A stretch of DNA of 64,000 nt from Lacinutrix sp. WUR7 (GTDB lineage Bacteria; Bacteroidota; Bacteroidia; Flavobacteriales; Flavobacteriaceae): positions 3,234,001 to 3,298,000 of the forward strand of contig NZ_CP045067.1 in assembly GCF_016864015.1 (NCBI RefSeq). Direction: 5' to 3'. The translations under genes were made by a program, and so were the position numbers. This document shows positions 14,316-39,893 of this stretch, one piece after another (the first letter of the stretch is position 1; each line of letters starts with the position of its first letter). The notes beneath the pieces are model-generated. The model was not told the DNA's origin and ran no database searches. It worked only from the letters and a program-made list of their open reading frames with translations.

Positions 14316-17300
14316 ATGACAACAATAATCCAAGGAATACTAAAACACCCAAGCTGTACAGATTTAACAAAATATGTTAAGTTATTGTATTTAGAATTAT
14401 ATGCTTGTACATTAACTAAAGAGCAAAAAATTAAAGATATCCCTTTTGATAAAGAAGGTAATTTTAAAGTTGAGCTAGAAAAAGGAGATATAGAAGTGCA
14501 GTATCTTGTAAAACTGGTTTATAAAGCAGCTAAGGAAAAAGAAGTAATTAGAACCAGTGCTAAATTATGTAGTTGTAAAACGCATGAGCTCGATTTTTAT
14601 TTCGACCCAAAACGGTATGAGATATTGCTTCCGTATTTGCAAGAGCAAGTAAAACCACATTTAGAGGGTTTATCCATAGACAAATTAACCGAAGAGCAAC
14701 TGCAACAGTTAGCTTGCTTATCTAAGCAGGATATTACCGATTTACGTGCATTGCAACAATCTGAACTTTGGAATGATGAGTTACAGGAAATCACTAAAAA
14801 TAAATGGTTAGAATGGGAAGGAAGGGTTAAAGAGGACACATATTTTAAGCTCGCTTCATCTAAATTGGAAGACCTTACTCAAGAACCAAAAGAAAGTTTA
14901 TCCTTCTTATTTGCGTTGACTAAAGGTGGCGTTACCGATTGGAAACAAGGCATAAGTGCTTCATCTAATCAACTCACCCAAAAGATAGCTAATGCCAATG
15001 ATAACAAATGGGTGCATATAGACCAAAGAGCTCAAGGTGTGCTTTTAAAAGGTATTGGATATCTACGAGATGCTATTTTGTTAAATGTAGAAGAAGATGA
15101 TTTGTATTATGACGCCAAATTAATAGCTGTTAGTTCGTTACCTTTTTTAGAAAAATCTACTCTTTTAAATGCCGTATTAGATGCTGGTAGTTTACAGGTT
15201 TACCTAACAGAAGAAGATGAAACTGAATATGATGATAACGACAGTACTAAAATAGTTAAACGTCTCAAAAAACAACCTGTAAAAACTAGGTTTAATAAAA
15301 AAGGGAATGACGAATTAGAACAAATTATTAGCTGGGATAAAACCTTGAAGGAATTTCCACCATTATTAGCTATTGTTGTTCCTGAATTGAGGAAAAATAA
15401 ATGGGATAAAACCAGTCTTTTAAAATATACGCAAGAGAATTGGAGAGAGCTTATTCATAATGTAGCAGGCGAATTAAAATATCCTTCTTCTTATAAAGAT
15501 AGTGAAGAGCCAATACAAAGTTATGCCTACGACCTAACACGAACCTTAACCGATCAATTTCCTACAGAAAAATTGGTAGGCCAACTCAAACAAAGTGAGC
15601 TGCCAAATAAGAATGATTTTTATCGTGTTTTAAGTAGAAACCCGGATTTCGATATTCAAAATCAGGCAGTCAGCAGACATTTTACTAAGGGTGAAAACGA
15701 CAGAGCTCCAGAAGTGGTTTCAGAAAGAGATTACAAAAACCTTCAGGAATTACAACGTACCATCAAATTAGCAGATGGCATAGAAAATTTACATCTTGTT
15801 GAAACCTTACTAAAGGAAGATCTAACTTCAGGAATGCAAATCATTCGTTTAGGGAAATTCGATTTTACCAATAAGATGCAAGCGTATGATTTTCAAGATT
15901 GGGAAATTCGTGGTATTTGGTGTAGAGCAGAAGCCTATTATGATACTTCCAAAGAAATTATGCGTCAGTATTTACAATATGACCGTAAGAATGCGTTTGT
16001 GCCCTCAATATTAAAAGGCTTAAGTGGAGCCCAACCTGACATCAGCACAACAAATACTGCAATAGCATTAAACCTGCCAGATATGGAATTATTGTTTGGT
16101 AGCTTAGACACGTGTAGTTGTGAACATTGCCAGTCAGTCTATAGTCCTGCAGCCTATCTAACTGATATGTTGCAATGGCTAAAAAGTGATATGAAATGCC
16201 AACAAACAGGGAATAATGGCTTTGTCGAAATAAATAGTAGAAGACCAGATATACAGTACATTCAACTTAACTGTAAAAACACCAATACAGTTTTGCCTTA
16301 TATTGATTTGGTAAATGAAGTGTTGCTAACGCACCTTGAAGGTAATATTCCTATAGACCCATTTCTAAGAGGTTTACAAACTACCTGGGAAACCGATAGG
16401 CTGTTAATGGAGCCAGAACACATCAATCTTCTAGAATTTGAAGATGCAATGGGTGAATTGAGATCCGCTAAATATCCTTGGTCTTTGCCTTATGATAGAA
16501 ATACAGATTTGGCACAAAATTATTTACTAGAATTAGATATTTCGTATGCTACATTGGTAAATGATCTTTCTGTTGTTGGTAATGAATACGACAGCAAACA
16601 TTGGGCAAATGCAAAATTAGGTTTGTTGAGTTTTATAGATCGCGGAAGTGTAGCCTATCCTGAGTGGAGTATTATAACAAGGAGCCATATGGCATCTACT
16701 GTTCTTAAAAGTTACTACGGTATTGATCCAGATTATTTTGTACAAGATATATTAGATGCTACTTCTTTGGATTACACAGTTTTTAAAACACTCCTTGAGC
16801 AGGTCTATATTATACAAAATGAAACAATAACTTTTACCAAAGATGACCAAAACCCTTGCGATCTTTCAAAAATGAAAATTATTGGTTTTGAAAAAGTAGC
16901 CGACCGTTTAATGCGCTTTGAACGCCTTAGAAGTTCTACAAATCTATCTGTTGAGGAGCTTGACGCTGCTATTCATTATTTAGGTGGTGGAGATTTGAAT
17001 TCAGATTTTCTGAAAAAATTGGCAGGAGCAGTAGAGTTGAGAGATGTCTATTCTATTTCAATTGATGCACAAATGGTACTATGGGATGGTTCTAGTGATA
17101 CTGACAAAAAATTGCTATTATCTAAACTTTCTGGCTTTGATACTTTCAATATAGAAGCATTGGTGACAAGTATGTATACGCCATTAAATACTACACTTAA
17201 AAAACCTTTAGACGTATTGCAATTTTTGAAGATTTGCACAAGTATTAAAAAGCTAGGTATACATCCAGCCGAGTTAATTTCAATGATTTTAGGAATTAAT

Positions 17301-20300
17301 TCTTGGTCTTTAATACCAACTTCTGTTTCTAGAGAATATGGTGAGCCAATTCATAATTCCATTAGTAATGGCTGGAATGCTATGTGCGATGATTTAAAAT
17401 CGCCAGCAAATGCTTATTATATTGTTATTGAGCTTTATAATGAAGTACAACTAATACAAGTAGATATTGATGCTTTAGGTTCAACGAGCGATCCAATTAT
17501 TCTTGATGAAATAGATGACTTGAATGATAAGAAAACAGCCGTTAACACTAAAATTAATTTACATCTCGCTGATTATGCAGATGAAATTGAAGCGACAATA
17601 AAACAAAGTTTAGGTAATACAACGCAATTAGGTTTAGCATTTGTAGATAGGATTTTATCGAGTTCAGACTTTACTAATTGGATTCAAAAATTTTTAGACC
17701 CATTTACTTGGATAGATTGGTTAGATCTAAATAGTACACTTCAAGATGACTTTGCAGCCTGTTATAGAACATTATTACGCATAGCAGTAATTAAACAAGC
17801 AACAGGTGTTACCAATGAATTGTTAAGCGATGTGATTGATAAACAGCCTAGTTTGAGTACAAGCAATTTTGCGTGGTTCAAAAAGTCGTTTGGAACAACT
17901 ACAAGCTTCGATATCAAAAAGGCTATTCAAAAAATAGCTTGGGTAAAAGATTTTAGTTCGCAATCAACAACTATTGGGATTTCTTTTATTGATTATTATA
18001 AACAAGTTATTGAGGTTAAAAGTAATCCAATTACCGATCAGAACGCTTCAGATTTAAAAGCAATTGAAATTCGGAATGAAATGAATTCAGATAATTGGTA
18101 CGCTACGTTTACAGAGCAACAATATCAATCACTTTTTTCAAATGCAACAGCATTGACCAATGGAAAAGATTTAGTTGAAATTCATTCGATCGCCATTACT
18201 TTATCCATCTACAGCTCTACCAATCCAGAAAATATAAAGGATATATGGGGCATTGTTTGGAAAAATGCAGCATTTGATGCATTCGTTGAAAACGGTCTTG
18301 GAGATAATGTTACAGTATTAGCTGCGATGGTAGAAGCAAACAACACAGAAGCACAATGGATAAAGAAAAATACAACAATTAACAATCGTGTACGTGTTAA
18401 CCTAAGAAGTGCTTTAGTTGCTTATTACATCCACTACAAAGCATTTAAGAATGAAAATGAAATTTACGCGCACTTTCTATTAGACCCAGAAATGGAAGCT
18501 TGTATGAAGACTTCTCGTACTAAACTAGCCATTTCGGGTATGCAAATGCTTATTCATAGAGCAATGATGGGCTTAGAAGAACACCTTTGCCCTACGGAAG
18601 ACAATAAGCTAGAATGGGAATGGCGTAAAAATTACCGGGTTTGGGAAGCTAATAGAAAAGTATTTCTCTATCCTGAGAATTGGATAGAACCTGAATTAAG
18701 ATTGGATAAAAGTGAGTTCTTTCAAGAACTAGAAGACGCTTTATTGCAAGACGAAATTAACGATGAAAATGCTGAAAAGGCAATGCAGCGATATTTGAGT
18801 AAATTAAATGACGTAGCTCGTTTAGACATTAGAGGTACTTATTTTGAATCTGACGGTAAAGGAGAATTTGGTTCAGGCATATTTCATGTGTTTGGTAGGA
18901 CATTTAGTACTCCGCATGAATATTATTATAGAAAACGTGAAGTTAATCGTGTTTGGACTGCTTGGGAAAAATTGGAGCTGGATATTGAAGGAGAACACAT
19001 CATTCCTGTTGTGCACAATAGAAAGCTGCACCTATACTGGCCGATGTTTATTGAAAAGGAGGATCGAAAAATTAAAAGAGTAATTGATGGTAACGAGCAA
19101 AATGCACCTTACTATGAAGTCAAAATGTGTTATTCCAAATTAGAATTTGGCAAATGGAGCCCGAAAAAGATTTTGGAGGGGACTATGTTAGCTGGAAACT
19201 ATGCGGGTAAAGGGTGTTTTAATAACCTTAGATATAAGTTAGGACAAGATGTTGGATATAAATTAATAAAAGAGGTGCAAAACCCTAATTGGAAGTGGTG
19301 GAAACCCAACCCTGATCATCCATATGGTGAAACAGGTCCACTACTGAAAGTATATGGGCCTGATGAAACGAATAATGGCTCTTTAGTCTGGTCAAACAGT
19401 GTTTATCAAGATTATGCTCCTGTAAGCATGGACAAGAATAAATTCTTTTTCTGGGCTGAAAAAAGCACAAATTCAGGAGAGTTAACCATACATGTTAGAC
19501 GTGATTTTGATGAAGCCGTAGATAATTATCATGATGGATATACAGAGCTTGCATATGAAGATTCGTTTAGAATTAGTGCCTGCGATGACCGGTTAGAAAT
19601 AATTCCTCCAGTAATAGAAGAAGTTTTGTTTGGTGAACCAACAAATGAAAGCCGTTTTTTGGCTCGACCATACAATACATTACCCAATGCCCAATTAATG
19701 ATTGAAGGCAAGGATGTGGAAAATGATAAATATCCTAGTGGTGGGCTATACGCAAAGCGAGAAATTACACACGCAAATGGTAGTGATAGAATATTGGATA
19801 ATACAAATGGTACATATCAATTAACCCATCTACACCAATACAAGCACGTTTATAGTCATTTACCATTTTTTATGGGAGATAATTTACACACCCTCTTTTT
19901 TGAAAAGCGTGTTGAGAAAAGTTGCGTAAAAATACCTATATATAATGATGGCGGTGAAAAAACTTGGTACACTACTGAATATAAAAATGTACTGTCTAAA
20001 TACCATGTACAACCACACGAACACCCTTATGCCTGCTTAATGTTGGCAGAAATGAATCAGTTTGGAATAAAAGGTTTGTTGGCGTCTAGAAATCCAAATA
20101 ATCAACTAAGACGACAACAACAAAACGCTACGTATTTTAAAAACGAATATCAGCCTGTTCCATTACACATAACAGAGCCTTACCCTAAGGATGAGTTTGA
20201 TTTCAGTTATTTTGGGGCGTATCAAAAATATAATTGGGAGATTTTCTTTCATGCTCCTTCACTCATCGCTAGACAACTAAAAAGCAATGCTCAATTTGCA

Positions 20301-22796
20301 GATGCTATTAAATGGTTGCAGTTTGTTTTTGATCCAACAAATAGAGATGTAAGTGATTATAAAGACAAACGCTTCTGGATGATAAAACCATTCCTTCAAG
20401 ATGTTAGTGAGGATTCCATCCAAAATTTGATGCACTTATTGGGTGCAACAGGCTTAAATCCTGAACAAGAGCAAAAAAGAGTTGAACTCAAAGCACAAAT
20501 AGAAACATGGAAAAACGATCCATTTAATCCACACGGCATAGCTGAAATGCGCTATCGTGCTTATATGTTATGGACAGTTTGTGAATACATAGATATCCTA
20601 ATAGAATGGGGTGATTCACTATTTAGACAAGATAGTATAGAGTCTTTAAATGAAGCTTCTAACTTATATATTCTAGCAGCCGAATTATTAGGAAATCGTC
20701 CGAAAAATATTGAAAAATCAACGAATTCTATAGCAAAATCATTTGCCGATTTAGGAAATATTGATGCCTTTTCAAATGCAATTATGAGCATTGAGAGTGA
20801 AATTCCATCCTATAATCCTACTATATGTTGTAAAGAACAGACGAATAATGAACGCTTCCAATTACCAGATTTATTGTTTTGTATTCCCGATAATCCGAAG
20901 TTACAAGAACTCTGGAATAGAACAGAAGGCAGGTTATTCAAAATTCGTCATTGTATGAATATTGAAGGGCAGGTAAGAGAATTACCATTATTTCAACCAC
21001 CAATAGAACCAGCATTATTAGTTAGAGCCAGAGCAATGGGTATTGATATAGGAGAAGTACTCAATGATATAGCAAAGCCAGAACCTCACTATCGTTACAA
21101 TTATCTATTACAAAAAGCCAATGAATTTACGGGCGAAGTAAAAGCTTTAGGCGGTGCATTATTATCTGCTTTAGAGAAAAAAGATGCCGAGGAACTAAAC
21201 TTAATACGACAAGTGTACGAAGAGAATATCTTGAAGGTGACAAAAAATCTCAAAAAAATGTCTATTGATGAAGCTAAGCTAGGATTGGCCTCAGCTCAAC
21301 ATAGTAAGAAGTTGATTGAAATAAGATTGTCGGAATATGAAGGGAAGGAGTATAAAAGTTCTAGAGAACAAAATGCAATTGACCAGACAAGAACTTCGGA
21401 AGCATTTATGTATTTAGAACAAGCATCTCAGTTGATAGCCGCTGGAATTGTACATGTGCCAGATACTTATGCTGGCTACAGCCCACTTATTAAATTACCA
21501 GGCGGAGATAAATTTGCATTCAATTTTTCAGCAATTGCCTCTAGTTTTGGTATCATTGGATCTGTTTATAGAAACAAAGCATCAATGTCATCAACATATG
21601 CAGGTTATGACCGCCGCCAGGAAGATTGGAATTTTCAAATAAAAACAGCTAAAGAAGAACTCCTCCAAGTAGAAAAGTCGATTATTTCTGCAGAAATACG
21701 AATTGCCATTGCAGAAAAAGATTTAGAAAATCACGAATTACAGATTGAGCAAAGCAAAGAAATATTCGATTTTGTAAAAAATAAGTTTACCAACCTCAAT
21801 TTATATTCTTGGATGACCGGTGAATTAATGAAATTGCACTACAGAGCCTATAAACTTGCTTATGAAATGGCCAAACAGGCACAACGAGCTATGAATAAAG
21901 AGTTAAACATTGATTTATCCCTAGTTGATTTTGGGCATTGGAATAGTTCTAAAAAAGGATTGTTAGCTGGAGAACAATTAAGTATGCAACTTAAAGAGTT
22001 GGATAATACTTATATTAAAAACGACAAACGCAGGTTTGAACTATCTAAAGATATCTCTTTGAAATTGTTGGATCCTGGAGCGTTGGTTAATCTTATACAA
22101 CATAAATACTGTAAGTTTAAATTAGAAGAGGATCTATTAAACTTAGTTTTTAAATCAAGAGATTTAACTGGAATGCAAATCAAGAGTATCGGAATTTCTA
22201 TTCCTTGCGTTACCGGCCCTCAGGTTTCAACTAATGTAAAATTAAGAGTTGAAGGAGGTGAGGAGTTTATCACGTCAACAGGAATTAATGATATGGGTGT
22301 TTTTGAACCCAACTTCAATCAGGCGAGATATATGCCATTTGAGTATTTAAAATTAGATAGCAATAAAATATTTGAGTTGATGTTAGATGAAGATTCAGAA
22401 TATGAAATAACTACTATATCAGATGTCGTATTGCATGTACGTTATTATGCGGAAAACACTCCAAACACTGTAGATATAATTGATAATAAAAATATAATTA
22501 GTACTGAACAACATTTATTAATGTCTTGGAAGTATGATTTTCCGCAAGAATGGCAAAAAAAGCTTGGAGACATTAGCTCTACGCCGCCAGAATTGACTAT
22601 AAACAATATTCCTTATAAATTAAGGAAGTTAGTAACTTCATCATTACCGATAGCTTCGATAGAATATTATGTTATGTATGAGGATAAGTCGTTTTCTGAA
22701 TTAGAAAACAATTTTGGTGCCATTACTTTAAATGGTAATATTTTTAATCATAATAGTAAAGCCGTGGCAGATATATGGTTATTGTATACATTATAA
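14316..22796 (+). CDS. Tc toxin subunit A (TcA-like pore-forming translocator)
   Basis: A 2826-aa protein, a little longer than Photorhabdus TcdA-type subunits (about 2500 aa). ATG at 14316 follows an A-rich leader. Residues 1-100 form a beta-rich domain unlike the classic TcA start. The VRP1-like region contains LDTCSCEHCQSVYSPAAYLT near 594-615, a strong family marker. Around 1515-1560 lies GSGIFHVFGRTFSTPHEYYY followed by YWPMF, typical of the region before the receptor-binding part; from about 1968 comes YNWEIFFHAPSLIARQL, which begins the C-terminal pore and TcB-binding part with long amphipathic helices (about 2280-2550). In the family, five copies form the injection channel and the C-terminus docks the B-C cocoon. 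It would deliver the effector of the upstream gene. A small companion gene starts 16 bp after the stop, so the genes are probably co-transcribed. Confidence 0.92.
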   Translation: MTTIIQGILKHPSCTDLTKYVKLLYLELYACTLTKEQKIKDIPFDKEGNFKVELEKGDIEVQYLVKLVYKAAKEKEVIRTSAKLCSCKTHELDFYFDPKRYEILLPYLQEQVKPHLEGLSIDKLTEEQLQQLACLSKQDITDLRALQQSELWNDELQEITKNKWLEWEGRVKEDTYFKLASSKLEDLTQEPKESLSFLFALTKGGVTDWKQGISASSNQLTQKIANANDNKWVHIDQRAQGVLLKGIGYLRDAILLNVEEDDLYYDAKLIAVSSLPFLEKSTLLNAVLDAGSLQVYLTEEDETEYDDNDSTKIVKRLKKQPVKTRFNKKGNDELEQIISWDKTLKEFPPLLAIVVPELRKNKWDKTSLLKYTQENWRELIHNVAGELKYPSSYKDSEEPIQSYAYDLTRTLTDQFPTEKLVGQLKQSELPNKNDFYRVLSRNPDFDIQNQAVSRHFTKGENDRAPEVVSERDYKNLQELQRTIKLADGIENLHLVETLLKEDLTSGMQIIRLGKFDFTNKMQAYDFQDWEIRGIWCRAEAYYDTSKEIMRQYLQYDRKNAFVPSILKGLSGAQPDISTTNTAIALNLPDMELLFGSLDTCSCEHCQSVYSPAAYLTDMLQWLKSDMKCQQTGNNGFVEINSRRPDIQYIQLNCKNTNTVLPYIDLVNEVLLTHLEGNIPIDPFLRGLQTTWETDRLLMEPEHINLLEFEDAMGELRSAKYPWSLPYDRNTDLAQNYLLELDISYATLVNDLSVVGNEYDSKHWANAKLGLLSFIDRGSVAYPEWSIITRSHMASTVLKSYYGIDPDYFVQDILDATSLDYTVFKTLLEQVYIIQNETITFTKDDQNPCDLSKMKIIGFEKVADRLMRFERLRSSTNLSVEELDAAIHYLGGGDLNSDFLKKLAGAVELRDVYSISIDAQMVLWDGSSDTDKKLLLSKLSGFDTFNIEALVTSMYTPLNTTLKKPLDVLQFLKICTSIKKLGIHPAELISMILGINSWSLIPTSVSREYGEPIHNSISNGWNAMCDDLKSPANAYYIVIELYNEVQLIQVDIDALGSTSDPIILDEIDDLNDKKTAVNTKINLHLADYADEIEATIKQSLGNTTQLGLAFVDRILSSSDFTNWIQKFLDPFTWIDWLDLNSTLQDDFAACYRTLLRIAVIKQATGVTNELLSDVIDKQPSLSTSNFAWFKKSFGTTTSFDIKKAIQKIAWVKDFSSQSTTIGISFIDYYKQVIEVKSNPITDQNASDLKAIEIRNEMNSDNWYATFTEQQYQSLFSNATALTNGKDLVEIHSIAITLSIYSSTNPENIKDIWGIVWKNAAFDAFVENGLGDNVTVLAAMVEANNTEAQWIKKNTTINNRVRVNLRSALVAYYIHYKAFKNENEIYAHFLLDPEMEACMKTSRTKLAISGMQMLIHRAMMGLEEHLCPTEDNKLEWEWRKNYRVWEANRKVFLYPENWIEPELRLDKSEFFQELEDALLQDEINDENAEKAMQRYLSKLNDVARLDIRGTYFESDGKGEFGSGIFHVFGRTFSTPHEYYYRKREVNRVWTAWEKLELDIEGEHIIPVVHNRKLHLYWPMFIEKEDRKIKRVIDGNEQNAPYYEVKMCYSKLEFGKWSPKKILEGTMLAGNYAGKGCFNNLRYKLGQDVGYKLIKEVQNPNWKWWKPNPDHPYGETGPLLKVYGPDETNNGSLVWSNSVYQDYAPVSMDKNKFFFWAEKSTNSGELTIHVRRDFDEAVDNYHDGYTELAYEDSFRISACDDRLEIIPPVIEEVLFGEPTNESRFLARPYNTLPNAQLMIEGKDVENDKYPSGGLYAKREITHANGSDRILDNTNGTYQLTHLHQYKHVYSHLPFFMGDNLHTLFFEKRVEKSCVKIPIYNDGGEKTWYTTEYKNVLSKYHVQPHEHPYACLMLAEMNQFGIKGLLASRNPNNQLRRQQQNATYFKNEYQPVPLHITEPYPKDEFDFSYFGAYQKYNWEIFFHAPSLIARQLKSNAQFADAIKWLQFVFDPTNRDVSDYKDKRFWMIKPFLQDVSEDSIQNLMHLLGATGLNPEQEQKRVELKAQIETWKNDPFNPHGIAEMRYRAYMLWTVCEYIDILIEWGDSLFRQDSIESLNEASNLYILAAELLGNRPKNIEKSTNSIAKSFADLGNIDAFSNAIMSIESEIPSYNPTICCKEQTNNERFQLPDLLFCIPDNPKLQELWNRTEGRLFKIRHCMNIEGQVRELPLFQPPIEPALLVRARAMGIDIGEVLNDIAKPEPHYRYNYLLQKANEFTGEVKALGGALLSALEKKDAEELNLIRQVYEENILKVTKNLKKMSIDEAKLGLASAQHSKKLIEIRLSEYEGKEYKSSREQNAIDQTRTSEAFMYLEQASQLIAAGIVHVPDTYAGYSPLIKLPGGDKFAFNFSAIASSFGIIGSVYRNKASMSSTYAGYDRRQEDWNFQIKTAKEELLQVEKSIISAEIRIAIAEKDLENHELQIEQSKEIFDFVKNKFTNLNLYSWMTGELMKLHYRAYKLAYEMAKQAQRAMNKELNIDLSLVDFGHWNSSKKGLLAGEQLSMQLKELDNTYIKNDKRRFELSKDISLKLLDPGALVNLIQHKYCKFKLEEDLLNLVFKSRDLTGMQIKSIGISIPCVTGPQVSTNVKLRVEGGEEFITSTGINDMGVFEPNFNQARYMPFEYLKLDSNKIFELMLDEDSEYEITTISDVVLHVRYYAENTPNTVDIIDNKNIISTEQHLLMSWKYDFPQEWQKKLGDISSTPPELTINNIPYKLRKLVTSSLPIASIEYYVMYEDKSFSELENNFGAITLNGNIFNHNSKAVADIWLLYTL

Positions 22797-31663: not shown

Positions 31664-32155
31664 AGATTATTTATTATGCAAAGCCTTTCGACTGCGCTCC
31701 AAACAGGCTTCGTTGGAGCATCTTATATCCTACATAATCAAGCTACCTGTCATGCTGAGTGCAGTCGAAGCATCTTTTATCCTTCAAAATAAACAATCTA
31801 ATTATAGTATAAGATTCCTGCCTTCGCAGGAAGTTGTCACCAAAGAACTGGTTTTTAAAATACTAAGCAGTAACTAGAGATTATTTATTATGCAAAGCCT
31901 TTCGACTGCGCTTTAAACAGGCTTCGACGAAGCATCTTATACCCTCCATAATCAAGCTACCTGTCATGCTGAGCGCAGTCGAAGTATCTTTTATCCTTCA
32001 AAATAAACAATCTAATTATAGTATAAGATTCCTGCCTTCGCAGGAAGTTGTCACCAAAGAACTAGTTTTTAAAATACTAAGCAGTAACTAGAAACTATTT
32101 GTCGTACGAAGCCTTTCAACTGCGCTCCAGACAAGCTTCGTTGAAGCATCTTATA
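31628..32155. repeat. 214-bp tandem repeat that includes the 3' end of topB
   Basis: Units start at 31628, 31842 and 32056 (period exactly 214); the third is partial. Each begins with codons for KELVFKILS(N/S)N and a TAG stop: the first is the true end of topB, the others are untranslated copies. Each full unit also carries an inverted pair (CTTTCGACTGCGCT and AG(T/C)GCAGTCGAAG) and a hairpin TTCCTGC-CTTC-GCAGGAA at 31815-31832 and 32029-32046. The GCAGTCGAAGCATC-type palindrome is a repetitive extragenic sequence common in flavobacterial genomes. Confidence 0.85.
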
Positions 32156-32200
32156 GTATTCAAATAAAACAGTCTTATTTACTTTGAAATTCAAACAAAA

Positions 32201-32226
32201 AAAAACCAACTAAACAGTTGGTTTTT
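32201..32226. terminator. Bidirectional terminator between topB and helicase
   Basis: AAAAACCAAC (32201-32210) pairs with GTTGGTTTTT (32217-32226) around a 6-nt loop. It lies between two convergent genes and carries A- and T-runs on its two sides. Confidence 0.85.
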
Positions 32227-32279
32227 AAACTTTTAAAACATTTCATTTAAACAATTAAATCAAATGTATTATTTTATAT

Positions 32280-33836
32280 TTATTCTGGTTTTCTCCCGTG
32301 AATTTCTTCAAAAACAGTATCAAAATTATCACGTAAATATGCACGAAGCTTTAATCTGTAATCGTTCTTTAACCAATCTACAAAGTTGTAGGTACTCTTA
32401 CTAATACACTTGGTATATCTACCAATTCTGTAATCGATATCATCACCTAACATTTTTGCAAGACCTAATGCGTCATAAACATCTTCGGAGTTTTCAATAC
32501 AAATTTTAGCATGATGAATAATAGAACGTTCTAATACTACTTTAGAAGATTCTCCATTAGTCACAGATGCGATATATGTTTTCTTGATATCGAAATACAC
32601 ATCTTTAGAATTAGCGAATTCTGCACGAAGCTCTTCTGGCATTTCATATCTGAAAGCTTCTTCTAACTCCTCATCATTTACAAGACCATCTAAATAGAAA
32701 TTAGGTGTTCTAAATATACGTTGCCAATCTAAATCTGCTCCCCAAGGTCCGAAACGGTGTAAATTATTCCCTAAATCAATGACTTGAAAAGTAGATTTAT
32801 TCTTTAAAATACGAGACCCTCTACCAATCATTTGGTAGTATAGTGTTAACGATTTTGTCGCTCTATTTAAAATAATAGCTTCTACCGTTGGTTCATCAAA
32901 ACCAGTAGTTAAGATACTAACAGAAGTTAATACCGCATCTGGCGTTTCATGAAACCACTTTAAAATGGCTTTACGTTCTTTTTTAGTATTGGTATTATCT
33001 AAGTGAGCAACTGGGTAACCTGCTCTTTTAAAGGTGTCATACACGTGTAACGATGTATTAATACCATTATTAAAGATTAGTGTTTTCTTTCCTTTACATC
33101 TTTCTTCATAGGCTTGAATAAGCTTAGAAAGCATGTCTGTATTGGTATATAAATCTTCCGAAGATTTTACCGTATAATCTCCATTAGCACCAACAATCAA
33201 GGATGTTAATCCTACATTATAGGAATATACTTCCGCTTGTGCTAAAAATTCATTTTGAATTAGGTGTTCAATAGTTTCCCCAACGATAAGCTCATTATAG
33301 TTATCGTTCATTGGAAGCTTAATATTCGAACTTAAAGGTGTTGCAGTAACTCCTAAGATAAAGGACTTTTCAAAAAACTTAAAAAGCTTCGTAAAAGAGT
33401 TGTAGTGTGCTTCATCAATAATTACTAATCCGATATCTGAAATATCCAGTTTCCCTTCTTGTAATCTATTATTTAGCGTTTCTACCATTGCCACAAAGCA
33501 ACCGTATTGTTCTTGATCGTCTAGATTCGCTTTGCTACTTACAATTTTATTTTCTACACCAAAACCAGTAAGCATGCTTGAAGTTTGCTTACACAATTCT
33601 ATTCTGTGCGTCATCACTAAAACTTTCTTCTTGTGATGTTTTAAATATTGTCTAACAATTTCTGAAAAAATAACCGTTTTCCCTCCACCAGTAGGCAATT
33701 GATATAACAAATGATAGTCTTCTGGAGCATCCTCGAATGCTTTAAAGATTTTGTTAATTGCACCTCTTTGGTAGCTGTAAAGATCTTTTCCAGCTTTATT
33801 TTCTTCTTGTTCTGTAGTTGTAATAGCGTTCCCCAT
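32280..33836 (-). CDS. DEAH-box superfamily 2 helicase (SSL2/ResIII-like)
   Basis: A 518-aa protein with a Q-like motif region (LYSYQRGAI at 19-27), Walker A PTGGGKT (48-54), motif Ia VMTHRIEL, DEAH box at 141-144 in VIIDEAHYN, motif III GVTATPLSS, and motif VI QMIGRGSRI near 335. The C-terminal 120 residues are specific and of unknown role. Family members (SSL2, type III restriction helicase subunit, RadD-like) act in DNA repair or unwinding; the size and motifs resemble E. coli RadD. A -7 box TATTTTTG lies on the minus strand at 33853-33860, only 17 bases before the start codon. Confidence 0.85.
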   Translation of the reverse strand: MGNAITTTEQEENKAGKDLYSYQRGAINKIFKAFEDAPEDYHLLYQLPTGGGKTVIFSEIVRQYLKHHKKKVLVMTHRIELCKQTSSMLTGFGVENKIVSSKANLDDQEQYGCFVAMVETLNNRLQEGKLDISDIGLVIIDEAHYNSFTKLFKFFEKSFILGVTATPLSSNIKLPMNDNYNELIVGETIEHLIQNEFLAQAEVYSYNVGLTSLIVGANGDYTVKSSEDLYTNTDMLSKLIQAYEERCKGKKTLIFNNGINTSLHVYDTFKRAGYPVAHLDNTNTKKERKAILKWFHETPDAVLTSVSILTTGFDEPTVEAIILNRATKSLTLYYQMIGRGSRILKNKSTFQVIDLGNNLHRFGPWGADLDWQRIFRTPNFYLDGLVNDEELEEAFRYEMPEELRAEFANSKDVYFDIKKTYIASVTNGESSKVVLERSIIHHAKICIENSEDVYDALGLAKMLGDDIDYRIGRYTKCISKSTYNFVDWLKNDYRLKLRAYLRDNFDTVFEEIHGRKPE

Positions 33837-33916
33837 AATTTTTAACGATGTGCAAAAATAACATCTTTTTGTAGTTTAGAGAGGGTAATTAGAAAGAAAT
33901 TTGAAAAATAGTTAAT

Positions 33917-34609
33917 CTATTCTTTAATTATAATGATAGTAGCTTTTACTCCTTTGGCTAAATTCCATTGATTTCCAGAAATCACTTCACCAAATTCATC
34001 GAGTATTTGAAACTCTGCAGTGTTTGGAGAAACCTGACCTGTATCTAAAGCAAAAAAGTCAATTTTATTTATTCCTGGAACTAAATTAAATTTAAAACCA
34101 CTGTAGTCAGGAGTTAATAAGACAGATGTTTTTACCACATCCCCATTTATAAAAACACGGATATGATCGCCATCAAAAGCACCATAATCTCTATACACTA
34201 TATTTATGTTTTTGGACGTTGTTCTATGATCTCCAAAAAATTGTGTGGTGGTATTCCCTCGATATTGCTGTTCCTTTCTTAAATCGGTATATTTTGCATG
34301 TTTATTAATGCGATCTTCATACAATTCACCAGGATCACCAAATTCTTCTTTATTAAACATAGAGAACTCTTTTTTTGGTAAATCTGTAGGCTGATTTTGT
34401 TTAGGAACTGTTAATCCATTTATATTATCCTCTTTAGGAATAATAAATCCTTGGTTATTTATTGGTTTCCCTTCTTCTTTAACCTCTTCTTGTATTTCTC
34501 CTTCTTCGCTTTCTATAACAGGAATAGCAACAGATTTTTGTTCACTATCAATTTGTGCTTGTAGTGTCAAACTGAAAAAACATAAAAAAACTAAAAATTG
34601 GATTCGCAT
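33917..34609 (-). CDS. Secreted protein of unknown function
   Basis: A 230-aa protein with an N-terminal signal peptide (MRIQFLVFLCFFSLTLQAQ, cleavage after AQ). A low-complexity Glu/Pro/Asn region (about 25-85) links it to a C-terminal domain (about 120-230) with alternating strands (INIVYRDYGAFDGDHIRVFI, then FNLVPGINKIDFFALDTG), which looks like a small beta-sandwich. I know no function. It is likely periplasmic or surface exposed. It is divergent from the micropeptide array, with 250 bp of shared upstream DNA. Confidence 0.75.
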   Translation of the reverse strand: MRIQFLVFLCFFSLTLQAQIDSEQKSVAIPVIESEEGEIQEEVKEEGKPINNQGFIIPKEDNINGLTVPKQNQPTDLPKKEFSMFNKEEFGDPGELYEDRINKHAKYTDLRKEQQYRGNTTTQFFGDHRTTSKNINIVYRDYGAFDGDHIRVFINGDVVKTSVLLTPDYSGFKFNLVPGINKIDFFALDTGQVSPNTAEFQILDEFGEVISGNQWNLAKGVKATIIIIKE

Positions 34610-34756
34610 AGTATATTAGAATAATTCTATTCTCTTTTTTCAAAAATCGTTCCTAAGTTTCAAATTTCCTATTTAAATAGATTCTTTTTGATTTATTTAA
34701 CTACTTCACATGTTTTTAACAGGACTTCTACTCGCTTAAAATGTTTAAAACGACCA

Positions 34757-34790
34757 TTTTTTTGTTAAAATATGTTAAATTACTATTATG
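34757..34790 (+). promoter_or_regulatory. Possible promoter of the micropeptide array
   Basis: TTG within a T-run, then about 19 bp and TATTATG, an imperfect -7 box. It is the best match in the 250 bp between the secreted-protein gene and the first micro-ORF, but it deviates from TAnnTTTG. Confidence 0.3.
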
Positions 34791-34861
34791 TAATGCATAG
34801 TACTGTAACAATTTTAAAACTCTGTCGTCTATTAGGTATAACAATCAAAAAAACTATAATC

Positions 34862-34948
34862 ATGAGAACTCTAAACAACAATCAATTATCAGGAACTTTA
34901 AACAATACGAAAAGTCATGCTTGGAATAGCAAAAGACGTTTCAGATAA
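34862..34948 (+). CDS. Micropeptide 1 of tandem array (28 aa, unknown)
   Basis: ATG to TAA encodes MRTLNNNQLSGTLNN followed by TKSHAWNSKRRFR. It is the first of three almost identical ORFs spaced 148 bp apart. It differs from the second copy by one synonymous change (Thr3 codon) and one replacement (Asn5 to Asp). The C-terminus is strongly basic (KRRFR) with a single Trp at position 21. There is no signal peptide, no transmembrane segment and no Cys. No Shine-Dalgarno, which is normal for the phylum. Function unknown; the neighbours carry no obvious modification or export enzyme. Confidence 0.6.
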   Translation: MRTLNNNQLSGTLNNTKSHAWNSKRRFR

Positions 34949-35009
34949 ATAGTACTTAAAAACTGCAATTCATCAATCAATAAAATCATCCATCAAAAAA
35001 CCAATTATT

Positions 35010-35096
35010 ATGAGAACGCTAGACAACAATCAATTATCAGGAACTTTAAACAATACGAAAAGTCATGCTTGGAATAGCAAAAGACGTTTCAGATAA
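35010..35096 (+). CDS. Micropeptide 2 of tandem array (28 aa, unknown)
   Basis: Encodes MRTLDNNQLSGTLNN followed by TKSHAWNSKRRFR. It differs from copy 3 at four bases, three of which are synonymous third-position changes (Thr12, Asn15, Asn22) and one a replacement (Ala20 to Thr). That pattern argues for selection on the peptide and is the main evidence that these are genes. Confidence 0.6.
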   Translation: MRTLDNNQLSGTLNNTKSHAWNSKRRFR

Positions 35097-35157
35097 ATAG
35101 TACTTAAAAACTGCAATTCATCAATCAATAAAATCATCCATCAAAAAACCAATTATT

Positions 35158-35244
35158 ATGAGAACGCTAGACAACAATCAATTATCAGGAACATTAAACA
35201 ACACGAAAAGTCATACTTGGAACAGCAAAAGACGTTTCAGATAA
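35158..35244 (+). CDS. Micropeptide 3 of tandem array (28 aa, unknown)
   Basis: Encodes MRTLDNNQLSGTLNN followed by TKSHTWNSKRRFR, the most diverged of the three short copies at the DNA level, yet with one residue changed relative to copy 2. The spacer after it differs from the earlier spacers, so this is the oldest junction of the array. Confidence 0.6.
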   Translation: MRTLDNNQLSGTLNNTKSHTWNSKRRFR

Positions 35245-35309
35245 GTTTTCCTTAGAAACAGCAATTCATCAATCAATTAATCAATCATCATCAAAAAACC
35301 ACCAGAATT

Positions 35310-35444
35310 ATGAGAACATTAGCAAAATTATCTAAAAAAGTAAGTGGTATTGTAGAAGAACAAAACCTTATAAATAGACATGTTATTCGTTTTTGTAATT
35401 CTAACACTACCCTTTGGAAAGGAACAAGTAGGTTCGCACATTAA
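35310..35444 (+). CDS. Micropeptide 4, longer relative (44 aa, unknown)
   Basis: Encodes a 44-residue peptide, MRTLAKLSKKVSGIVEEQNL followed by INRHVIRFCNSNTTLWKGTSRFAH. It shares the MRTL start, an internal Ser-Gly and a C-terminal Trp...RF pattern with the three 28-aa peptides but is otherwise different, with one Cys. It is the last ORF of the array and is followed 19 bp later by a strong terminator, which implies that the four ORFs form one transcription unit. Confidence 0.55.
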   Translation: MRTLAKLSKKVSGIVEEQNLINRHVIRFCNSNTTLWKGTSRFAH

Positions 35445-35463
35445 AAGAATTAGTCACTCTTTA

Positions 35464-35501
35464 AAAAGCCAGTTAGCAATATATGTTAACTGGTTTTTTT
35501 T
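35464..35501 (+). terminator. Rho-independent terminator of the micropeptide unit
   Basis: Stem AAAAGCCAGTTA / TAACTGGTTTTT (35464-35475 with 35487-35498, one G-T pair) around an 11-nt loop, ending in a run of eight Ts. Confidence 0.85.
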
Positions 35502-35531
35502 GTGTTCTGTATGTAATCTTACAAAATAAGT

Positions 35532-36246
35532 GGCTCTCCTCTTTATTTTTAAGAAGAGAATGAATTCTAGTTTTCCATAGAAAACTGGAAGAAAGAGGAG
35601 TTAAAGCAATTAATTTGAAAAGTATCTATTACACTAACTCTCCGATTCCGTAAGAACGGAACCACCTCTCTTTAACATAAGAGAGGAGCCGGTTCTTTGA
35701 TATTTTTTGTAATCATATGGCTCTCCTCTTATTTTAAGAGGAGAATGAATTCTTGTTTTCCATAGAAAACTGGAAGAAAGAGGAGTTAAAGCAATTAATT
35801 TGAAAAGTATCTATTACACTAACTCTCCGATTCCGTAAAAACGGAATTACCTCCCTTTAACAAAAGAGAGGAGCCGGTTCTTTGATATTTTTTGTAATCA
35901 TGTGGCTCTCCTCTTATTTTAAGAGGAGAATGAATTCTAGTTTTCCATAGAAAACTGGAAGAAAGAGGAGTTAAAGCAATTAATTTGAAAAGTATCTGTT
36001 ACACTAACTCTCCGATTCCGTAAAAACGGAATTACCTCCCTTTAACAAAAGAGAGGAGCCGGTTCTTTGATATTTTTTGTAATCATGTGGCTCTCCTCTT
36101 ATTTTAAGAGGAGAATGAATTCTAGTTTTCCATAGAAAACTGGAAGAAAGAGGAGTTAAAGCATTTAATTTGAAAAGTATCTGTTACACTAACTCTCCGA
36201 TTCCGTAAAAACGGAATTACCTCTCTTTAATAAAAAAGAGGAGCAA
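35532..36246. repeat. Four tandem 185-bp hairpin-rich repeats
   Basis: Units start with GGCTCTCC at 35532, 35719, 35904 and 36089 (periods 187, 185, 185). Every unit holds four hairpins in the same order: TCTCCTCTT/AAGAGGAGA, AGTTTTC/GAAAACT, ATTCCGT/ACGGAAT, and a CCTCTCTTT/AAGAGAGG-type stem that ends in GAGGAGCC. Only very short ORFs exist on either strand, and sequence differences between units tend to preserve the stems. There is no gene between 35445 and 36332. A structured RNA or a repetitive extragenic element are the options. Confidence 0.8.
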
Positions 36247-36332
36247 GTAAAGACTTTACTCTAGCTCTATACAAGAATTTCGGTATTGTTTTTGTGAATA
36301 GTACAATCTATTAATCTTAAATATTTACTAGC

Positions 36333-36890
36333 ATGAGATACTCAAAATCTTCACCAACAGTAAATGCAGGTTCTATGGCAGACATTGCATTTTTATTATT
36401 AATCTTCTTTTTAGTAACCACAACAATTGCTTCCGACGAAGGTATAAACAGAAAATTACCCAGGGAATGTCCGCCAAATATAGATTGTTACAAAAATTTA
36501 AATGAACGTAATGTATTGCGAATTCTACTAAATGCAAATGATGAAATCTTAATCAATAATGCATTGGTTACCCTTCCGGAAATAAAAAACATCACTAAAG
36601 ATTTTATTGATAATAATGGCGAAACTACTTGTTTGTATTGCAATGGTAAACAATTAGCCGATGCATCAGATACACCTACAGAGGCTGTAATTTCCCTTCA
36701 AAACGATAGAACCACTAGTTATGCGCTTTATGTAAAAGTGCAAGATGAAATTACTAAAGCATATTATGAATTGCGAAGCACGTACGGTAAAAACAAATTC
36801 CATAAAACGGAAAGTGAATTAACGCCGAGAGAAATAAAAGAAATTCGGGAAGCATATCCTTTTATAATTAGTGAAGCGGAAACAAAATAG
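36333..36890 (+). CDS. ExbD/TolR-family biopolymer transport protein (orphan)
   Basis: A 185-aa inner-membrane protein with one N-terminal helix (about 15-33, GSMADIAFLLLIFFLVTT) that contains the conserved Asp17 used for proton coupling, and a periplasmic domain. ExbD proteins work with ExbB in a stator that energises TonB-dependent transport. The gene has no ExbB or second ExbD neighbour, which is unusual. The periplasmic part has an insertion with two Cys (CLYC) and two Cys earlier (RECPPNIDC), not standard for E. coli ExbD but seen in longer Bacteroidetes ExbD types. It ends at a terminator at 36901. Confidence 0.85.
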   Translation: MRYSKSSPTVNAGSMADIAFLLLIFFLVTTTIASDEGINRKLPRECPPNIDCYKNLNERNVLRILLNANDEILINNALVTLPEIKNITKDFIDNNGETTCLYCNGKQLADASDTPTEAVISLQNDRTTSYALYVKVQDEITKAYYELRSTYGKNKFHKTESELTPREIKEIREAYPFIISEAETK

Positions 36891-36900
36891 TCTATAAAAG

Positions 36901-36940
36901 GAAACCTATCCAAATAACTTTCTGGATAGGTTTTCTTTTT
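36901..36940 (+). terminator. Terminator after exbD-like gene
   Basis: AAACCTATCC (36902-36911) pairs with GGATAGGTTT (36924-36933), followed by a T-rich tail. Confidence 0.8.
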
Positions 36941-37004
36941 AATGTTAAACTAGATGCTGAAACAAGTTCAGAGTGACCATATCTATATTTGTTTTTAAAG
37001 GATA

Positions 37005-37220
37005 TTATTCTGCGATTCCTTCTAAATCTAATAAGAAACTGTAGGTTAATGCTCGTTTTTTGTATCGCTCGAATCTTCCTGATGCTCCAAAAGGACCATT
37101 ATCCATATTACAATCCATAATTAATAGATTATCATCTGTTTTAAGCTCTCTTAGTTTGGCAATTCCTTTTATAGGTTCCCAATATTGTACATGACTATCC
37201 CAATAACCAGTAGTTATTCC
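37005..37220 (-). pseudogene. C-terminal fragment of oligopeptidase B (prolyl oligopeptidase family)
   Basis: On the minus strand the frame reads GITTGYWDSHVQYWEP, then KGIAKLRELKTDDNLLIMDC, then GPFGASGRFERYKKRALTYS and FLLDLEGIAE with a stop. This matches the last 70 residues of protease II / oligopeptidase B, where (T/A)GLHDSQVQYWEPAK, KLRELKTD and the GxSGRF segment with the catalytic His region are conserved. The frame has a TAA immediately upstream (37221-37223), and no further upstream part is present, so only a remnant is left. The catalytic His position (usually HGG) reads GPFGA, so even the motif is lost. Confidence 0.75.
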
Positions 37221-37254
37221 TTATAAAGCTTCTAAATGACAAGAATTGAATATA

Positions 37255-37869
37255 CTACTCACAAATAAGATTATAATCGTTTACTAATTCAAATACATCC
37301 TTTTCTTCATACATATCGTTACGTAGATATTCAACTATATCCTTGCAATCCGAAAAATATTTAATAGTTTTTTCTTTAAACTCCAAAAAGGAGTAATGAG
37401 AGATTAAAGGAGTGAGAGAAGACTCTCCATCTCTTAAAATATAATACTCCTTTTCTTCTTCATACTCCGTTCTTATAACAAAACCACTATGATTGGTTAT
37501 ATCTGTTGCAACAACTATAGTTCTGGTGTATAACTTTGCTTTACCATTAACTATTAATTTGAATAATCTAAACTTGTTCTTTTTAATTGGGACATATTCA
37601 TAATGACCATGATTAGCATCATATGCGTCAAAATATATTTTATCTACTTGTGATTTATCAAAAAGTTGGATTTTATGATCTTCATCTTTCTTGAATTCAA
37701 CTCTAGACTTTCCAAATGAAATTAAACTTGCAACAGTCATCGGTATTTGAATCAGCCCTTCTTTTGTTTCTCCGTTTTTTAAAATTATGACACCAGAAGT
37801 CCATTCGTATTGCCCATAGATTAAAGAACAATTAGAAATTAATAAAATTAAAATAATCTTTTTAAACAT
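37255..37869 (-). CDS. Secreted protein of unknown function
   Basis: A 204-aa protein with a signal peptide (MFKKIILILLISNCSLIYGQ). The mature part starts with WTSGVIILKNGETKEGLI, a pattern I associate with small flavobacterial secreted proteins of unknown function, followed by strands and a charged C-terminal helix region with CKDIVEYL. It starts 23 bp downstream of the E1 gene stop, on the same strand, so it may be read through from it. No enzymatic motif. Confidence 0.7.
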   Translation of the reverse strand: MFKKIILILLISNCSLIYGQYEWTSGVIILKNGETKEGLIQIPMTVASLISFGKSRVEFKKDEDHKIQLFDKSQVDKIYFDAYDANHGHYEYVPIKKNKFRLFKLIVNGKAKLYTRTIVVATDITNHSGFVIRTEYEEEKEYYILRDGESSLTPLISHYSFLEFKEKTIKYFSDCKDIVEYLRNDMYEEKDVFELVNDYNLICE

Positions 37870-37892
37870 TAGAAATCCAATTTGCTACATTT

Positions 37893-39893
37893 CTAATACG
37901 CCAACAACTTCAGTAATTCCCCTTCAAACTTATCTCGAGATAAATACTGATCTTCCAATTGATTAATAAACGGAATTGGTGTTTCCATACTAGCAACTCG
38001 TTTTACCGGAGCGTCTAATTGTTCGAAGCAGTTTTCCATAATTAGTGCCGAAATATCACTGGCTATTCCTCCAAAAAGAGAATCTTCTTGTAATATAATG
38101 GCTCTTCCTGTTTTCTTTACGGAAGCATAAATAGCTTCGGTATCTAAAGGTTGTAACGAACGTAAATCAATGACATCTGCTTGTATGTTGCTATGTTTAT
38201 CTAAAGTATTTAAAACCCAATGTACAGCTGCTCCGTAAGAGATTATAGTAACCTCGTTTCCTTCTCGTAAAAGGGAAGCTTTACCAAGTGGTAATGTGAA
38301 ATAATCTGTTGGTACTTCTTGACGAATACTTCTATACAAAGCCTTGTGCTCAAAGAACAATACCGGATTTGGATCGTTAATTGCTGACGCTAAAAGTCCT
38401 TTGGCATCATAAGGAAACGCTGGGTAAACTACTTTTAAACCTGGTGTTTTAGTAAACCAAGCTTCGTTAGTTTGGCTATGAAAAGGTCCTGCAGCAACTC
38501 CTGCTCCGCAAGGCATTCGTAACACAACATCTGCATTTTGGTTCCATCTATAATGTGATTTTGCTAAATAGTTTACTACCGGATTAAATCCGGAAGTAAC
38601 AAAATCTGCAAACTGCATTTCTACCACACTTTTAATTCCCGCAATAGAAAGTCCCATTGCTGCTTCTACAATTGCAGATTCACAAATTGGCGTATTACGG
38701 ACTCTATCTTTTCCAAAGGCTGCTACAAAACCATCTGTGATCTTAAAAACACCTCCATATTCTGCAACGTCTTGTCCCATGATTACTAAATCATCATGAC
38801 GCTCCATGCTTTGTTTTAATCCTTCAGAAATAGCATCAACTAAACGCAGTTCTTCCGTTTCATTATTTGGTGTAACTTCTTGATATACTATTTTTTGATA
38901 CACATCATTTAACTCTTCACTTTCAGATGCAATTATTGCTTCTTCCGCATAAGCTAAATCTAAATGTTCATTAATTTCATGAACTATTTCCTCTTTGAAC
39001 TTCACCTCTAAAGCTTCGTCAAGAATACCTTCGTTCTTTAAAAATTCTTGATAATTTTCTAAAGGATCCTTCTTCGCCCAAGTATCTAATAAGTCTTGAG
39101 GCACGTATTTTGTTCCGCTAGCTTCCTCATGCCCTCGCATTCTAAAGGTTTTAAATTCTAGTAAAACAGGACGTGGATTTTCACGAATGTCTTCCGCTAA
39201 AGCGCTCACTTTAGTATACACTTCTAGAATATTGTTTCCGTCAATAATATGACTTTCCATGCCATAACCCAAAGCGCGATCGGCTAAATCCTTACAATTA
39301 TATTGCTCACTGGTTGGCGTCGATAATCCGTAACCATTATTTTCTATACAGAATAAAACGGGTAATTGCCATACCGAAGCTACGTTTAAAGCTTCATGAA
39401 AATCCCCTTCACTAGTTCCGCCTTCACCAGTAAAAACAGCAGTTACTTGATTTTTATTTTTCAACTTGCTTGCTAATGCAATACCATCTGCAACCCCTAA
39501 TTGCGGTCCAAGATGCGAGATCATACCAACAATCTTGTATTCTTGCGTTCCAAAGTGAAAACTTCTATCTCTCCCTTTAGTAAATCCACTAGCTTTCCCT
39601 TGCCACTGACTAAAAAGTCGGTATAATGGGATTTCACGAGAGGTAAAAACACCTAGATTCCTGTGCATTGGTAAAATATACTCTTCTGCTAACATGGCTT
39701 TTGTAACCCCTACAGAAATAGCTTCTTGACCAATACCAGAAAACCATTTGGAGATTTTCCCTTGTCGTAATAAAATAAGCATCTTTTCCTCTATTAATCG
39801 AGGTTTAAGCATACTCTTGTATAAATCGATTAAGGTTTCTTTTTTTAAACCTTCTTTATTGTAGTTAATCATAGCTTTAGAAAACGTTTCCAT
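37893..39893 (-). CDS. 2-oxoacid dehydrogenase E1 component, fused alpha and beta subunits (branched-chain type)
   Basis: A 666-aa fusion. The alpha part (1-340) has the thiamine diphosphate motif from GEG (156-158) to NN (185-186); the beta part (about 350-666) begins LRLVDAISEGL and contains GVFKITDGF, TPICESAIV and the C-terminal transketolase-like domain. In the cell it decarboxylates a 2-oxoacid (most likely the branched-chain ones from Val, Leu and Ile) and passes the acyl group to lipoyl E2. Single-chain E1 proteins of this layout are the normal form in Bacteroidetes. E2 and E3 are not nearby. A -7 box TACATTTG lies at 39913-39920 (minus strand). Substrate choice cannot be read from the sequence. 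Confidence 0.9.
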   Translation of the reverse strand: METFSKAMINYNKEGLKKETLIDLYKSMLKPRLIEEKMLILLRQGKISKWFSGIGQEAISVGVTKAMLAEEYILPMHRNLGVFTSREIPLYRLFSQWQGKASGFTKGRDRSFHFGTQEYKIVGMISHLGPQLGVADGIALASKLKNKNQVTAVFTGEGGTSEGDFHEALNVASVWQLPVLFCIENNGYGLSTPTSEQYNCKDLADRALGYGMESHIIDGNNILEVYTKVSALAEDIRENPRPVLLEFKTFRMRGHEEASGTKYVPQDLLDTWAKKDPLENYQEFLKNEGILDEALEVKFKEEIVHEINEHLDLAYAEEAIIASESEELNDVYQKIVYQEVTPNNETEELRLVDAISEGLKQSMERHDDLVIMGQDVAEYGGVFKITDGFVAAFGKDRVRNTPICESAIVEAAMGLSIAGIKSVVEMQFADFVTSGFNPVVNYLAKSHYRWNQNADVVLRMPCGAGVAAGPFHSQTNEAWFTKTPGLKVVYPAFPYDAKGLLASAINDPNPVLFFEHKALYRSIRQEVPTDYFTLPLGKASLLREGNEVTIISYGAAVHWVLNTLDKHSNIQADVIDLRSLQPLDTEAIYASVKKTGRAIILQEDSLFGGIASDISALIMENCFEQLDAPVKRVASMETPIPFINQLEDQYLSRDKFEGELLKLLAY

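Follow-up and report, generated by a model that had tools for sequence, protein, structure and literature searches.

The array of very small genes described here is probably a single operon that encodes translated micropeptides, cationic and cytosolic-looking, and that is controlled by an ECF sigma factor, probably in envelope stress. At the level of sequence the array is coding, its peptides are under purifying selection, it is built from tandem copies, and its promoter is strongly conserved. The array occupies positions 34862-35444 of the window, by which we mean the whole stretch of 64,000 nucleotides that was analysed (Lacinutrix sp. WUR7, contig NZ_CP045067.1), and comprises three ORFs of 28 codons (type A) followed by one of 44 codons (type B). 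Coordinates of these ORFs and of the surrounding features are collected in Table 1.

Table 1. Features of the micropeptide array and its flanks, numbered from the first letter of the window.
Feature	Position	Strand	Remark
AT-rich direct repeat GTTAAAATATGTTAA, upstream element	34764..34778	+	GTTAA in the upstream part of 74/92 aligned promoters
Imperfect palindrome TATTATGTAATGCATAGTACT, predicted operator for a winged-helix regulator (HTH_34)	34784..34804	.	one mismatch from TACTNTGNNATNCANAGTACT
-35 element TGTAAC, predicted ECF promoter	34804..34809	+	
-10 element CGTCTA, predicted ECF promoter	34826..34831	+	16 nt from -35
Micropeptide copy 1, type A, 28 aa, MRTLNNNQLSGTLNNTKSHAWNSKRRFR	34862..34948	+	ORF, profile matches, selection
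Micropeptide copy 2, type A, 28 aa, N5D relative to copy 1	35010..35096	+	ORF, profile matches, selection
Micropeptide copy 3, type A, 28 aa, N5D and A20T relative to copy 1	35158..35244	+	ORF, profile matches, selection
Micropeptide type B, 44 aa, C-terminal end LWKGTSRFAH	35310..35444	+	predicted single helix
Intrinsic terminator, hairpin and T-run	35464..35506	+	hairpin -17.0 kcal/mol
185-bp repeat, 3.9 copies	35530..36244	.	between terminator and exbD, outside the operon
ExbD/TolR-family gene	36333..36890	+	frequent neighbour, probably a separate unit in the window

The 148-bp period reported for the 28-codon ORFs in an earlier note on this DNA is exact, and the hairpin and T-run of the terminator begin 19 nt past the last stop, as stated there for the related 44-codon ORF. 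Copy 1 is listed within a longer frame that opens at 34772, and its start at 34862 was chosen by support from relatives. The MRTL start, single Trp and Arg-Phe end that had been ascribed to all copies hold in the form MRTL..W..R[FY] for the four ORFs, but their ends differ, being ..RRFR in the 28-aa copies and ..SRFAH in the 44-aa ORF. Four ORFs of this form in the window compare with none in 100 block-shuffled windows, and a chance repeat was rejected on this basis. Copies 2 and 3 are indeed separated by four base differences, namely three synonymous third positions and one Ala-to-Thr change. Between copies 1 and 2 there are two base differences, and each is followed by the same 61-nt spacer, implying a recent duplication. 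Three synonymous changes out of four in a recent duplication are weak evidence alone, and it is the cross-species test that carries the claim of selection.

A type A profile (A1) built from 17 rows of the 28-aa peptide was used with a match threshold of E up to 0.01. Matches are found in 114 of 299 sampled Flavobacteriaceae genomes; in a class-wide sample of 197 genomes, few of them Flavobacteriaceae, the only match is the window's own genome. Of 283 confirmed stretches, the best 80 come from carriers such as Lacinutrix, Oceanihabitans, Algibacter, Flavivirga, Winogradskyella, Olleya, Formosa, and Aquimarina. When calculated over distinct sequences from pairs that are 2-20% diverged, pN/pS is 0.294 for type A (184 distinct sequences, 2999 pairs), 0.214 for type B (47 distinct sequences, 20 pairs), and, for a third type C introduced below, 0.162 for members of 37 aa (64 distinct sequences, 120 pairs) and 0.093 for members of 36 aa (11 sequences, 3 pairs only). 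Frames shifted by one or two bases give values of 0.96-2.28 (A, B, and C of 37 aa). The pairs are non-independent and the collecting expressions fix a few residues, and we therefore read the ratios as indicative; the shifted frames lie far above them. Codon-level purifying selection on the micropeptides is clear by this measure. The proposal in the earlier note that the peptide itself is kept is thereby borne out, and the homologous ORFs with synonymous bias that it suggested seeking in other genomes exist.

Array architecture was compared in the window locus and 38 fetched loci (39 in all). One, two, three, and four type A copies are present in 17, 16, 5, and 1 of these loci, respectively, and in 22 of the 39 the type A copies are followed by one type B peptide of 43-44 aa, with a typical end like LWKGTKRYAH. 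In the flanks, taken to about 7 kb on each side, the window's 230-aa protein (no Pfam match) has relatives in 35 of the 39 loci, the window's dehydrogenase E1 in 31, its helicase in 28, and its ExbD-family protein in 25. Outside the main synteny group the gene neighbours vary, and they differ among lineages. A mobile element was rejected as an explanation because a tblastn comparison of the type A peptide with phage and plasmid collections gave no match (a short query, with low sensitivity) and because most of the 39 loci have recurring flanking genes. Two observations concern the rest of the window. The copies of the 185-bp repeat between the array terminator and exbD match at 96% and contain internal inverted repeats, and a 37-base core string of this repeat is present in 9 of 405 fetched loci, all of which cover the same place. 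In addition, the ORF list contains an ORF of 2826 aa at 14316-22796, which we take to resemble a large insecticidal-complex (Tc-like) protein.

The earlier note overlooked the promoter, through which the array is connected with a sigma factor and with a wider family. By established consensus, TGTAAC-N16-CGTC is an ECF-type promoter. The conserved block upstream of type A reads roughly GTTAAAATnTGTTAA, then TACTwTGTnATnCATAGTACT, then TGTAAC-N16-CGTCTA. The pattern AGTACTGTAAC-N16-CGTC is present in 127 of the 299 genomes, with 0 for the backward control; in an order-wide sample it is seen in 7 of 196 genomes, all of them Flavobacteriaceae, and the control in 2. Almost all promoter-bearing genomes (122/127) also carry A or C, the other five having variant micropeptides behind the promoter, and A or C is found without the exact promoter in 32 of the 299 genomes. 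The bare pair TGTAAC-N16-CGTCTA is unspecific: it occurs at 10 places in six genomes, 5 of them at arrays and the other 5 elsewhere. Allowing one mismatch in a 14-base promoter core proved too loose to be of use, with 4 real and 4 control matches in the window's genome.

Loci fetched by the promoter revealed the third type, C, which is mostly 36-38 aa in length (for example, MKASITKTATESKTGQYFSSFRNSKRAQWAQYRNYNR) and usually tandem. Type C is present in 48 of the 299 Flavobacteriaceae genomes, and A or C in 154. Rarer promoter-linked forms are 24-aa copies in locus L324 and 29-aa copies in L307. With the Trp in register, the three types can be aligned at their C-termini (hhalign P values of 8e-4 for A-C, 0.03 for A-B, and 0.011 for C-B, with low probabilities of 24, 1.7, and 3.9%, respectively). 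In most peptides, a C-terminal module lies at or within three residues of the C-terminus; its strict form, W-x3-[RK][RN][YFH]-x0-3, is present in 182/182 type A, 51/54 type B, and 62/75 type C sequences, all collected with related expressions. An ORF with the module follows within 420 nt at 75 of 80 distinct places fetched by promoter, using an expression that was written after the peptides had been seen and that has one term added for L307 (74/80 without this term, and 72/80 for the strict module). Over all loci, many of which were fetched by peptide, a promoter is followed by a module ORF in 163 of 168 cases compared to 3 of 396 control positions. Among the five promoter-fetched places that have no module ORF (L295, L325, L326, L330, L333), the sites at L295, L325, and L326 look like chance, and L330 has a peptide with a C-terminal extension behind the promoter. 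At L333 (1627-2079), what follows this composite promoter, in place of micropeptides, is a 151-aa protein whose N-terminus is signal-like and which has no Pfam match.

Database searches and modeling add the following. Six sequences (one A, two B, two C, and one 24-aa variant) match 0 families in Pfam and NCBIfam at E up to 10, and a type C profile has no significant match to PDB chains (best E 0.099). AlphaFold2 predicts one helix for the 44-aa peptide of the window (mean pLDDT 82.6, pTM 0.38; five models ranging from 64.8 to 82.6). The helical hydrophobic moment of this peptide is ordinary, 313 of 2000 shuffles being as high, although the 54 type B sequences average 0.53 compared to 0.42 when shuffled; type C has no such excess. 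As a set, the type B peptides are mildly amphipathic, but the window copy is not significantly so.

Nineteen places in the window's genome match Sigma70 region 4 (PF08281), and one of these has GTAAC-N16-CGTC upstream. It encodes an ECF sigma factor of 169 aa, and the operon continues with a 145-aa protein that has no Pfam match, and which should be the anti-sigma factor by position, and two DUF4252 proteins. An orthologue of the sigma gene is present in 29 of 30 chosen genomes, and in 28 of these 29 the 200 nt upstream of the gene keep GTAAC-N16-CGTC. The gene and the motif are likewise present in G007, G013, G019, and G143, four tested genomes that have no A or C match, implying that this sigma factor has other work. 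Moreover, two other sigma genes in the window's genome have related AAC..CGTC sites upstream, so that another sigma could serve the array. SigX/SigM/RpoE-like ECF regulons, with their autoregulated sigma/anti-sigma operons, share an AAC -35 element, a CGTC -10 element, a 16-nt spacer, and a site upstream of the sigma operon. Here, too, an AAC-type -35 and a CGTC -10 stand at fixed spacing (TGTAAC-N16-CGTCTA, 34804-34831), and the same promoter lies upstream of a sigma gene, which would be the cognate one. We infer, with fair support, that the array is under ECF control; the predicted regulon differs from those in that its targets are tandem micropeptides without a family model. In Flavobacterium psychrophilum, a CGT -10 box has been assigned to an ECF sigma factor, and the SM6 promoter class of that species includes T9SS and Band-7 genes, no micropeptide array being described in the passages on it (PMC9723704). 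DUF4252 genes adjoin sigma genes in expression tables from Porphyromonas gingivalis and Prevotella bivia, with no function given in the passages concerned (PMC10101095, PMC11410844).

The -35 element of the array promoter is overlapped by the imperfect palindrome. Its halves are complementary at 6.1 of 9 positions compared to 3.1 when one half is shuffled, and in 75 of 92 promoters its upstream half-site has TAC where expected. Matches to the palindrome pattern were seen in each of the genomes searched (8 of 8), with none for the control, and several of the matches head CreD-type operons. With up to one mismatch, it heads one fully read operon in the window's genome, which encodes an HTH_34 winged-helix protein and the inner-membrane protein CreD (PF06123); in the other genomes searched it occurs at the same or related genes, and also near some unrelated genes. 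The array and the HTH_34/CreD promoter have palindromes that match with up to one mismatch within one genome; CreD is no part of the array, and binding by the regulator is a prediction. The upstream half-site of type C departs from that of the CreD operon. In L160, L161, and L163 (G061:C1:3474115, G073:C1:64401, G167:C1:3019714), from three genomes, the palindrome is further found upstream of a protein of 150-154 aa, presumably DUF4442-like. Upstream of the palindrome in the window, the direct repeat GTTAAAATnTGTTAA at 34764-34778 might be an UP element or another operator.

On the reading that we favor, RNA polymerase carrying one conserved ECF sigma factor would transcribe the array from TGTAAC-N16-CGTC, and the HTH_34 regulator encoded with CreD might bind the palindrome over the -35 element to repress or gate the array. 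HTH_34 control, and envelope stress as the signal, are put forward here as weak suggestions from the palindrome and its company. The palindrome of the HTH_34/CreD operon, and the arrays of two other lineages that are followed, on the same strand, by a transglycosylase/transpeptidase gene (L287, L307), point to the envelope by association, that is, by operon company only. Envelope stress would then elicit a burst of peptide, the tandem copies raising the dose. Our guess is that the C-terminal module, W-x-x-x-[RK]-[RN]-[YFH], docks the peptide on one conserved intracellular partner, perhaps a regulator, the ribosome, or the surface of the inner membrane, and that the remainder of the peptide may tune the contact made by the module.

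The same peptides might instead be abundant cationic binders of RNA, ribosomes, or the nucleoid in stress, hibernation- or protectant-like, with no single protein partner. The mean net charge of about +6 in each of the three types is consistent with such a role, as are the variable neighbours outside the main synteny group and the two or more ORFs that stand behind 138 of the 163 promoters, which suggest dose. The positions of the Trp and of the Arg/aromatic residues near the C-terminus are fixed, however, and, though partly imposed by the search expressions, suggest a specific contact; the absence of a Pfam match for the sequences that were tried also argues against it. We consider this explanation unlikely, if worth keeping in mind.

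It is improbable that the RNA is what matters, the ORFs being leaders for attenuation or decoys in a regulatory RNA. Support for this idea comes from five relatives (L064, L070, L073, L076, L079) in which exbD starts 66-71 nt past the final stop of the array, an interval where no strong terminator was detected, and from the detection of a strong terminator directly after the array in just 10 of 39 loci. Against it stand the selection on the peptides and the lack of any excess RNA structure in the array, for which z is 0.33 and 12 of 20 shuffles fold as well. A structured RNA was rejected on these values together with Rfam, where 11 sub-threshold matches fall in 32000-38000 and none within the array. 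An attenuator would have its regulated gene downstream on the same transcript, but in the window the terminator intervenes before exbD, and an element like GGTATTGTTTTTGTGA is located 5' of exbD in the window and in three of four relatives inspected. Leader peptides of exbD were accordingly dropped for the window; they are possible in relatives that have exbD within 66-71 nt.

Precursors of exported, modified peptides (RiPP-like antimicrobials or signals) are slightly less probable still. Darobactin- and dynobactin-like precursors have Trp-Asn with basic and aromatic residues near the C-terminus, as does type A, the WNSKRRF end of which we take to recall darobactin-like cores, and the short conserved core with Trp-Asn and Lys/Arg occurs here in tandem copies. 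An HlyD-type adaptor gene lies downstream of one array (L327). This arrangement is seen in two genomes of one genus, where L327 (the same place as L371) and L329 have a single type A-like gene about 265 nt upstream of the adaptor gene, identified by Pfam in L327 only. The earlier note had seen no processing or export gene adjacent to the array, and this agrees with our scan: by Pfam, no radical SAM, protease, or ABC-type export family, and no other recognised peptide-processing or export gene, is present among 13 window neighbours, two of which matched no family. Neighbours differ among lineages, moreover, and most type B and C members have no Trp-Asn core. A darobactin-like RiPP was dropped on the lack of a modifying enzyme among the scanned neighbours and of the core in most of B and C.

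Small membrane toxins of tandem type I toxin-antitoxin loci, which the tandem copies of very small ORFs might bring to mind, are very improbable, since the window's four peptides are hydrophilic (GRAVY about -1.5 for type A and -0.4 for type B) and have no hydrophobic, membrane-spanning segment (best 19-aa Kyte-Doolittle mean 0.23), and since, at the low sensitivity already mentioned, the type A peptide is unmatched in phage and plasmid collections. With no hydrophobic stretch, these peptides lend no support to the secreted and toxin-like functions that the earlier note had entertained; the regulatory function that it also named may apply.

A description of such a micropeptide family was not among the matches listed in a search of the open literature, which leaves most subscription journals and preprints outside, and no paper there contains the three peptide strings that were searched. 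Returning to the preferred explanation, ECF-controlled micropeptides with a shared C-terminal end, we suggest tentatively that the promoter-defined superfamily, with members of 24 to about 44 aa and arrays of up to five ORFs, may serve marine Flavobacteriaceae as the dedicated output of a circuit for envelope stress that combines the ECF sigma factor with the HTH_34/CreD regulator. Its members could then form a new class of intracellular stress effectors that act through a common Trp/Arg/aromatic module carried on changing bodies. About half of the sampled Flavobacteriaceae genomes carry such genes, and the sequences that were tried have no Pfam or NCBIfam model. Micropeptides of this kind are better found by their promoter than by their protein, which would offer a general route to micropeptides that have been missed, and the present case provides a named sigma operon and a predicted operator in a little-studied bacterial family.
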